A stretch of 64,000 nucleotides of DNA from contig NZ_BDEL01000001.1 of the NCBI RefSeq assembly GCF_001685485.1, positions 2,911,501-2,975,500 of the forward strand. Reading direction: 5' to 3'. A model generated the notes under the pieces. It worked only from the letters and a program-made list of their open reading frames with translations, was not told the DNA's origin and searched no databases. Position 1 is the first letter of the stretch. Every line of letters starts with the position of its first letter. The DNA is from Formosa haliotis (GTDB lineage: Bacteria > Bacteroidota > Bacteroidia > Flavobacteriales > Flavobacteriaceae). Below, in pieces: positions 63,064-64,000 of this stretch. A program made the position numbers and the translations under genes.

Positions 63064-63086
63064 TCTAATCTTAATATTAAATATAA

Positions 63087-63118
63087 AAAAAAGCAGAATC
63101 GTGAGATTCTGCTTTTTT
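63087..63118. terminator. Two-way terminator after odhB
   Basis: A perfect 14-bp stem, AAAAAAGCAGAATC (63087-63100) and its complement 63105-63118, has a GTGA loop and T-runs on both strands. It also sits directly after the stop of a minus-strand micro-protein gene. Confidence 0.9.
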
Positions 63119-63124
63119 TATGTC

Positions 63125-63232
63125 TTATCGTAAAAAATAAATAAAAAGGTTCAAGCCTATAACAGCTAAAGCTAAAAGGAATAGGCCTACAATAAGAAAT
63201 TGGTTTTCTGAATTGGTAGAGTTTTCCATCAT
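63125..63232 (-). CDS. 35-residue single-helix membrane micro-protein
   Basis: The frame begins MMENSTNSENQFLIVGLF and continues with a strongly hydrophobic helix (about residues 12-33), ending FLR. A polar Asn/Ser-rich N terminus and a C-terminal Arg suggest a single-pass membrane peptide. Either of two adjacent ATG codons could be the start. It ends within seven bases of a two-way terminator and follows the triple repeat array on the same strand. No homology can be judged; it could be a chance frame, but the composition and placement favour a real gene. Confidence 0.55.
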   Translation of the reverse strand: MMENSTNSENQFLIVGLFLLALAVIGLNLFIYFLR

Positions 63233-63257
63233 ACTTGAATTGACAGTTTTTAGATTG

Positions 63258-63385
63258 AATAAAATCAAAAACTCTGCACTGTTACCATGCAGAGCTTTCT
63301 TTTTAATAATTCTCCCTAAGAACTAATTAATAGCATTGTAAAGATAAAGGATTGGTTTGATGTATGAAATACGTATATATGTGTA
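63258..63385 (-). ncRNA. Tandem unit 1: operator, -7-like box, conserved core and terminator hairpin
   Basis: On the minus strand the order is palindrome TACACATATATACGTA (63385-63370), 23-bp gap, TATCTTTA (63346-63339), the 39-bp core (63343-63305) and a hairpin with stem CTCTGCA / TGCAGAG (63294-63272), followed by TTTTTGATTTT. The predicted RNA is about 70-80 nucleotides. The core contains AGTTCTTAGGGAGAA and a six-codon frame MLLISS. See units 2 and 3. Confidence 0.6.
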
Positions 63386-63403
63386 TTTTTTTCGAGTAAG
63401 GTT

Positions 63404-63528
63404 CTAAAAAACAAAACTCTACACCAGTTACGATGTAGAGTTCCTTAAATAATTCTCCCTAAGAACTAATTAATAGCATTGTAAAGGTAAAGGATTGATT
63501 TGTAGTATGAAATACGTATATATGTGTA
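63404..63528 (-). ncRNA. Tandem unit 2: operator, -7-like box, conserved core and terminator hairpin
   Basis: The palindrome is at 63528-63513, TACCTTTA at 63489-63482 and the core at 63486-63448, identical to unit 1. The hairpin AACTCTACA / TGTAGAGTT spans 63442-63415 and is followed on the minus strand by TTGTTTTTT. Relative to unit 1, one G-C stem pair is replaced by A-T in both arms, preserving pairing. Confidence 0.62.
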
Positions 63529-63547
63529 TTTTTTCTGAGAAGGTTTC

Positions 63548-63673
63548 TTAAAAAACAAAAACCCTACACCGGTTAAGATGTAGGATTTTCTGAATAATTC
63601 TCCCTAAGAACTAATTAATAGCATTGTAAAGGTATAAGATTAATATATAGTATGAAATACGTGGATATACGTA
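63548..63673 (-). ncRNA. Tandem unit 3: operator, -7-like box, conserved core and terminator hairpin
   Basis: The palindrome TACGTATATCCACGTA (63673-63658) differs from the others but keeps TAC...GTA ends. TACCTTTA is at 63634-63627 and the identical 39-bp core at 63631-63593. The hairpin CCTACA / TGTAGG (63584-63563) is followed on the minus strand by TTTTTGTTTTTT. The palindrome lies five bases after the stop of the regulator gene. Confidence 0.62.
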
Positions 63674-63678
63674 TTTTT

Positions 63679-64000
63679 TTAAAAGATTTCCTTGTTTTCA
63701 ACAGCCCACATGTATAGGGCATTGTGTTTCCCGTGAAGTTTTAGTTTGGTAACAATGTTGCTTCGGTGTTTTTCTACGGTTCTTGGTGATATTCCAATTT
63801 CTTCAGCAATTTCGTTGCTGGTTAAATTACTAGCAATAAACTTAAGAATTTTTATTTCAGTTTTTGTAAGCTTATTTAAGGCTATTAAATCGGAATGTTT
63901 ATATGTTTTTTCAAGGCTAGGAATAAGATCTCTGCTAAAATAAGGGGTGTTGTTTTTAACACATTCAATACAGTTTTCTAACTCTTCGACAGCAAATTCT
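63679..64000 (-). CDS. NarL/LuxR-type regulator, C-terminal part (cut by the window end)
   Basis: The visible 106 residues run from the end of a receiver-like region (FAVEELENCIECVKNNTPYF) into a LuxR/GerE helix-turn-helix domain: LTKTEIKILKFIASNLTSNEIAEEIG, then ISPRTVEKHRSNIVTKLKL. The N terminus lies beyond 64000. The spacing before the HTH fits a response regulator with a receiver domain, but the phospho-acceptor cannot be seen. It is followed after five bases by the first of three 7-2-7 palindromes that resemble sites of this protein class. Confidence 0.85.
   Translation of the reverse strand, partial: EFAVEELENCIECVKNNTPYFSRDLIPSLEKTYKHSDLIALNKLTKTEIKILKFIASNLTSNEIAEEIGISPRTVEKHRSNIVTKLKLHGKHNALYMWAVENKEIF

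Follow-up and report, generated by a model that had tools for sequence, protein, structure and literature searches.

Among the multi-copy small RNAs (sRNAs) described in the open-licence literature, those most similar in layout to the locus studied here are found in other phyla or under other kinds of promoters. LhrC1-5 of Listeria are controlled by LisRK, and four of the five copies are clustered; they are 111-114 nt long and bind ribosome-binding sites through CU-rich motifs (excerpts of PMC12101431). The GacA-controlled sRNAs RsmX/Y/Z combine a response regulator (RR) with an upstream activating sequence before redundant sRNA genes, including the tandem copies rsmX-1 and rsmX-2, and these RNAs of 110-124 nt carry 6-10 GGA motifs which bind RsmA/E (excerpts of PMC7911923). 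In the open-licence literature the nearest described multi-copy family of the Bacteroidota, as far as the excerpted account goes, is the FopS family/GibS of Bacteroides thetaiotaomicron with 14 paralogues of about 65-70 nt and a conserved 5' region functioning as seed; the FopS genes have canonical sigma-ABfr promoters and are perhaps also under a regulator yet to be identified (PMC11697453). For the Flavobacteriaceae few regulatory RNAs came to light in this literature, with one study of an sRNA deletion (PMC9723704) and the further entry PMC5395568. One of them is Rfp18 of Flavobacterium psychrophilum, a genus-conserved RNA with at least three stem–loops (excerpts of PMC9723704).

The locus analyzed here is located at the end of the window, by which we mean the whole 64,000-nt stretch of Formosa haliotis DNA under study. 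It contains near-identical hairpin genes, each with a putative promoter and terminator of its own, and on these sequence features it falls among the multi-copy sRNAs of the LhrC, Rsm and Qrr kind; as judged from sequence its layout matches that of multi-copy sRNAs under a response regulator. With LhrC it would share the control of a multi-copy sRNA by one two-component system, which is predicted here. It differs from LhrC in phylum and RNA length and by a purine-rich loop instead of CU-rich motifs, and it possesses an adjacent RR gene and a microprotein ORF, neither of which is mentioned in the excerpted text of PMC12101431. The RR, the site upstream of redundant sRNA genes and the tandem copies are reminiscent of Rsm, whereas the RNAs would be about 70 nt long with one GGA in the core and have no known protein partner. 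FopS is alike in phylum and size and unlike in its promoters; the covariance model R2 introduced below matched Flavobacteriaceae only in a draw from the phylum, whose listing does not say whether it included Bacteroides. Rfp18 is likewise a conserved sRNA of Flavobacteriaceae; going by its description, a third stem–loop is mentioned for it and two hairpins are predicted here, and tandem copies or a RR are not mentioned for Rfp18 in the excerpts. A search of Rfam 15 at the gathering cut-off gave no match in the 64-kb window and none in 12 loci with relatives of the array, in line with the preliminary description of this DNA, which knew of no matching family. The open-licence literature (subscription papers and supplements being outside its scope) contained no description of the array family, and the microprotein ORF behind the array, which had gone unlisted, is new here.

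The array consists of three units on the minus strand (63261-63387, 63406-63530 and 63551-63675; Table 1), each made up of a 20-bp palindrome, a TAnnTTTA box, a 39-bp core and a terminator hairpin. The preliminary description had reported three tandem units with identical cores, and the cores (63305-63343, 63448-63486 and 63593-63631) proved identical base for base. The near-palindrome that it noted is present at all three units but is 20 bp and not 16 bp wide; the box noted for each unit was found as well, 21 bp behind the 20-bp palindrome. The site of unit 3 reads exactly AATACGT-N6-ACGTATT and occurs once in its own genome (one 4.3-Mb contig). The palindromes of units 1 and 2 deviate from it by two mismatches each, and two palindromes with one mismatch are present elsewhere in the genome, neither of them ahead of a unit. 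Between 63050 and 63720 we find five terminator-like sites compared with a mean of 0.2 in shuffled sequences, and three of them are the hairpins which, each followed by a T-run on the minus strand, had been proposed to close the units. The predicted RNAs of the three units form two hairpins each with folding z-scores of -3.9, -4.9 and -4.3. This array pattern is far beyond chance. The preliminary description had mentioned neither the RR nor the operator in its full width, and it lacked both the microprotein ORF and the related loci where a microprotein follows the operator. The terminator-like hairpin behind the microprotein ORF could serve on both strands, so the convergent gene, which we take to be odhB, could use it too.

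Table 1. Features of the array and its surroundings (positions in the window)
Feature	Position	Strand	Remarks
Response regulator (RR) gene, 3' part, NarL/LuxR-type	63679..64000	-	Pfam Response_reg and GerE
Unit 3 operator AATACGT-N6-ACGTATT (putative)	63656..63675	-	fixed spacing in 119/121 copies
Unit 3 TAnnTTTA promoter box (putative)	63627..63634	-	
Unit 3 predicted sRNA	63551..63624	-	5' end approximate
Unit 3 stem–loop 1	63596..63612	-	loop AGGG
Unit 3 terminator hairpin	63557..63590	-	terminator scan
Unit 2 operator (putative)	63511..63530	-	
Unit 2 TAnnTTTA box	63482..63489	-	
Unit 2 predicted sRNA	63406..63479	-	5' end approximate
Unit 2 stem–loop 1	63451..63467	-	
Unit 2 terminator hairpin	63413..63444	-	terminator scan
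Unit 1 operator (putative)	63368..63387	-	
Unit 1 TAnnTTTA box	63339..63346	-	
Unit 1 predicted sRNA, possible microprotein mRNA leader	63261..63336	-	5' end approximate
Unit 1 stem–loop 1	63308..63324	-	
Unit 1 terminator hairpin	63267..63298	-	terminator scan
Microprotein ORF, 35 aa, single-transmembrane	63125..63232	-	MMENSTNSENQFLIVGLFLLALAVIGLNLFIYFLR
Terminator-like hairpin behind the microprotein ORF	63086..63119	-	terminator scan

Within the genus the core (up to three mismatches) together with the operator was detected in six of six genomes; the other five genomes have one close core copy each, and in all three genomes that were opened a core copy lies behind the RR gene. For the family we used two covariance models. 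R1, built from 8 sequences with no operator included, matched 125 of 397 genomes at E<=0.01; after two of 123 matches had been dropped as antisense self-matches, 121 copies remained and served for the analysis of operator spacing. R2, built from 97 sequences with the operator included, matched 121 of the 397 sampled genomes at E<=1e-4, so that the covariance-model search of the Flavobacteriaceae suggested in the preliminary description did return relatives. With 9 candidates per genome scored, R2 gave at least 295 matches; 94 of the 121 positive genomes have at least two, and the highest count per genome is at least nine. Among the matches listed, 56 of 63 pairs of neighbours within 500 bp are spaced 131-161 bp apart. 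Draws from the order and from the phylum yielded matches in 10 of 395 and, with R2, in 5 of 375 genomes, all of them Flavobacteriaceae (the share of either draw outside the family is not given; stricter filters were applied to draws over 40 genomes).

The array stands directly behind the gene of a 210-aa RR (L002:4679-5311) which runs past the window end and encodes a receiver (Response_reg) and a GerE domain according to Pfam; among the best 25 of 92 matched NCBIfam models none reached the cut-off. A retropepsin-like gene is located immediately upstream of it (L002:5354-5806, minus strand). We gathered 31 loci by RR protein similarity alone. A unit is found right behind the RR gene in all 25 loci whose RR is 54-62% identical and in none of the six with distant RRs (30-35% identity). 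The retropepsin-like gene precedes the RR in 25 of these 25 loci and likewise in the other sRNA loci with the RR and its upstream gene in view. At L089, a weak R1 match, the 3 kb contain neither RR nor retropepsin-like gene. Across the 397 genomes, 115 have both the RR (E<=1e-35) and the sRNA, six the sRNA only, 61 the RR only and 215 neither. With an RR match at E<1e-68 the sRNA is present in 67 of 68 genomes. Of the 176 RR-positive genomes, 12 of the 61 without recognised sRNA were opened around the RR and form the related set L092-L103.

That the units are a mobile or selfish repeat (REP/MITE-like) which resembles promoters and terminators by accident can hardly be credited. Tandem copies and some dispersed copies would be expected of such an element, but the presence of a unit behind the RR in all 25 loci, the rigid operator spacing and the low copy number (1-4 R2 matches in 115 of 121 positive genomes) are all at odds with it.

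An operator with up to three mismatches precedes the sequence GCTATTA by 33 bp (114 copies) or 34 bp (5 copies) in 119 of the 121 copies (112 distinct sequences), and this spacing was found even though R1 contained no operator. The two copies without it are L037 and L038:1913-1994. From the centre of the palindrome to the conserved GCTATTAAT the distance is 43 bp. Flavobacterial promoters usually have a -7 box of the TAnnTTTG type. TTT[AG] follows the operator at a distance of exactly 25 bp in 90 of 97 sRNA units and in 11 of the 12 related sRNA-less loci. Behind the operator of the 12 related loci GCTATTA is absent throughout; therefore this stretch is probably an RNA element and not part of the promoter. 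GCTATTAAT was also considered as a promoter element, a reading disfavoured by its lack in 12 of 12 related promoters and kept alive by L120. The latter (G000:C1:4246896-4246988) is matched weakly by R2 as a fourth site of the F. haliotis genome; it has an operator-like site, then 33 bp and GCTATTAATCA, with no terminator seen, and a long ORF whose start resembles a signal peptide lies downstream of it.

With the adjacent RR, the operator spacing and the co-occurrence across genomes, the earlier suggestion that each unit has its own promoter and makes its own RNA, all under a single RR, gains in weight, and the sRNA-array reading as a whole, in which transcripts and RR binding are predictions, is supported by the comparative evidence.

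For the structural analysis the alignment A6 was reduced by thinning from 112 distinct operator-bearing copies to 97. In these 97 units changes on both sides which preserve pairing occur at 12 of 12 pairs of the terminator helix, and the observed score was reached by none of 500 shuffles. When both hairpins are taken together, 93.4% of cells are paired compared with 83.9% in shuffles and 38-59% when the partners were slid. The covariation of stem–loop 1 is weaker with three of six pairs. Its loop falls into the classes A (UUAGGGAG), B (GAGAGAG) and C (UUUUGGGAG), and all three units of the window belong to class A. Thus the hairpins change in sequence and keep their pairing in homologous units as had been seen within the array, and the finding which the preliminary description named as refuting its proposal, namely stems which do not covary and a core which is not kept, was not obtained: the homologous loci retain the core and their terminator stem covaries.

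Two other readings of the units have to be weighed against these data. The units could encode a leaderless hexapeptide (nTG CTA TTA ATT AGT TCT TAG), which we regard as very improbable. ATG, GTG or TTG is present in 75 of 97 rows and LLISS follows the start in 47, but the remaining 22 have CTG, AAG, GAG and others before CTATTA or are unreadable, the frame varies in length, 42 different peptides result and conservation extends beyond the stop into the hairpin. The units appear to be noncoding on this evidence, and a leaderless micro-ORF is disfavoured. Alternatively, the RNAs might act as sponges for an RNA-binding protein which would read GCUAUUAAU and the purine loop, as Csr/Rsm RNAs do for CsrA/RsmA. 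The combination of a RR with redundant hairpin RNAs does resemble GacA and Rsm (excerpts of PMC7911923), and the loop sequence of the units is strongly conserved. Nevertheless we consider such a role unlikely: counted by eye, GGA occurs once in the shared core and is missing from the usual class B loop, compared with 6-10 in Rsm (excerpts of PMC7911923), and there is no known partner protein. With regard to multiple GGA motifs the array does not belong to the Csr/Rsm sponges.

Behind the array a microprotein-like ORF is present in 39 of 40 further loci, i.e., in 24 of the 25 RR-fetched loci (L061 excepted) and in 15 of 15 others, as counted by a scan without shuffled control. Pairs of microproteins with more than 60% amino-acid identity (n=34) yield a pooled pN of 0.15 and pS of 0.61, a comparison which this filter biases to low dN. 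All 27 microproteins of an alignment share one asparagine within the membrane span. Pfam and NCBIfam searches with two members matched no family. With permissive Rfam thresholds the best match was Ocean-V (RF01714), whose 25 bits fall well short of the cut-off of 75; it is off the unit cores at 63202-63275 (minus strand), where it covers parts of the unit 1 terminator and of the microprotein ORF, and is probably due to chance.

The position of this ORF raises the question whether the units are attenuated leaders, the RR promoter producing the microprotein mRNA, the hairpin stopping most of the transcription and the extra copies adding promoters. In 35 loci including the window the last unit is 8-194 bp upstream of the ORF, and L044, L045 and L046 alone have an extra operator between the two; in the other loci expression of the microprotein would therefore need read-through. 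In the 26 loci with at least two units the last unit is of class B in 15, class A in six and other in five, while 25 of the 33 upstream units are of class A, one of class B and seven other. The last unit is also less stable (mean -21.3 vs -23.3 kcal/mol upstream, p=0.007) and its U-runs are shorter (4.8 vs 5.6, p=0.036). However, last and upstream units show no difference in the most U per 8-nt stretch (p=0.40), the last unit of the window is of class A like the two others, copies are found away from the RR in six fetched loci (L104-L109), and the core looks in our judgement better conserved than attenuation alone requires. We therefore find it doubtful, though well worth considering, that the units are leaders and nothing else.

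Judging from these comparisons the RR probably has two outputs, the multi-copy sRNA and the membrane microprotein, and we consider it likely that the locus as a whole is the output of a NarL/LuxR-family RR in the following way. The RR would probably bind the 20-bp palindrome, whose centre precedes GCTATTAAT near the transcript start, and the bound RR would recruit RNA polymerase to the TAnnTTTA promoter. Each unit would then yield an sRNA of ~70 nt with the single-stranded 5' GCUAUUAAU, a hairpin with purine loop (AGGG) and a terminator, and the tandem copies would increase the dosage of the sRNA. Part of the transcription would pass the hairpin of the last unit and give rise to the 35-aa membrane microprotein. 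The sRNAs would most likely pair in trans through the invariant 5' GCUAUUAAU and/or the AGGG loop. Anatomy, conservation, covariation, synteny and operator geometry are read directly from the sequences, and from them we infer transcription, RR binding, read-through and base pairing. Since the operator is defined, a candidate regulator is encoded next to the array, most positive genomes have more than one copy and the microprotein is conserved as well, the stimulus and the targets are directly testable.

Outside the array a full-length complement of the sRNA with up to three mismatches was not found. The 10-mer TTCTCCCTAA is near a same-strand start codon in four of 23 non-self places (three gene families), and the reversed control 10-mer in one of the 30 places fetched out of 42; for starts on the antisense strand the counts are 0 of 23 and 1 of 30, respectively. 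The best site of TTCTCCCTAA, complementary to the sRNA loop, starts 13 nt ahead of the start codon in a secreted-protein gene (L132, L146, position 1501). It is present in the orthologues of two species, not kept in three other orthologues and not conserved across the genus. As a lead to candidate targets TTCTCCCTAA is weak and non-conserved.

In the 12 related loci the RR gene is situated between odhB and a histidine kinase gene (domains HisKA_3 and HATPase_c in the single one tested), while in the sRNA loci the retropepsin-like gene takes the place of the kinase gene. The palindrome is found behind the RR in 12 of 12 (up to one mismatch over ten fixed bases) and a membrane ORF of 34-47 aa behind the palindrome in 10 of 12. 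A profile comparison of the two sets of microproteins gives a match with 90% probability (E 1.5e-6), a score which membrane segments can inflate. In a tree of 56 RR rows the 12 related RRs make up one side of a branch with support 91/97; the tree is rooted at its midpoint, which falls on a single very long branch, and the bootstrap is unsettled. As they stand amid sRNA-bearing rows (beside L087, L090 and L091), this argues weakly against an ancestral state with the microprotein only. From the sequences the sRNA and the mRNA leader look related, and either may have come first. It is conceivable, and we hold this tentatively with somewhat less than even confidence, that one RNA element functions in such two-output RR loci both in cis as microprotein leader and in trans as tandem sRNA. 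Lineages would then vary between an sRNA array plus microprotein with the retropepsin-like gene and the microprotein alone with the histidine kinase, and the sRNA may have been born from the leader or the leader derived from the sRNA. The related loci thus offer a comparative view of the interconversion of sRNA and mRNA leader. A conserved stretch similar to AACTAACTAACC was found by script before the final terminator in eight of the 12 related loci. In L093 the small ORF comes first and is followed by the GCTATTAATCA stretch with a terminator-like hairpin, and L115 has sRNA-like units (about 1415-1754) and then a small membrane ORF.
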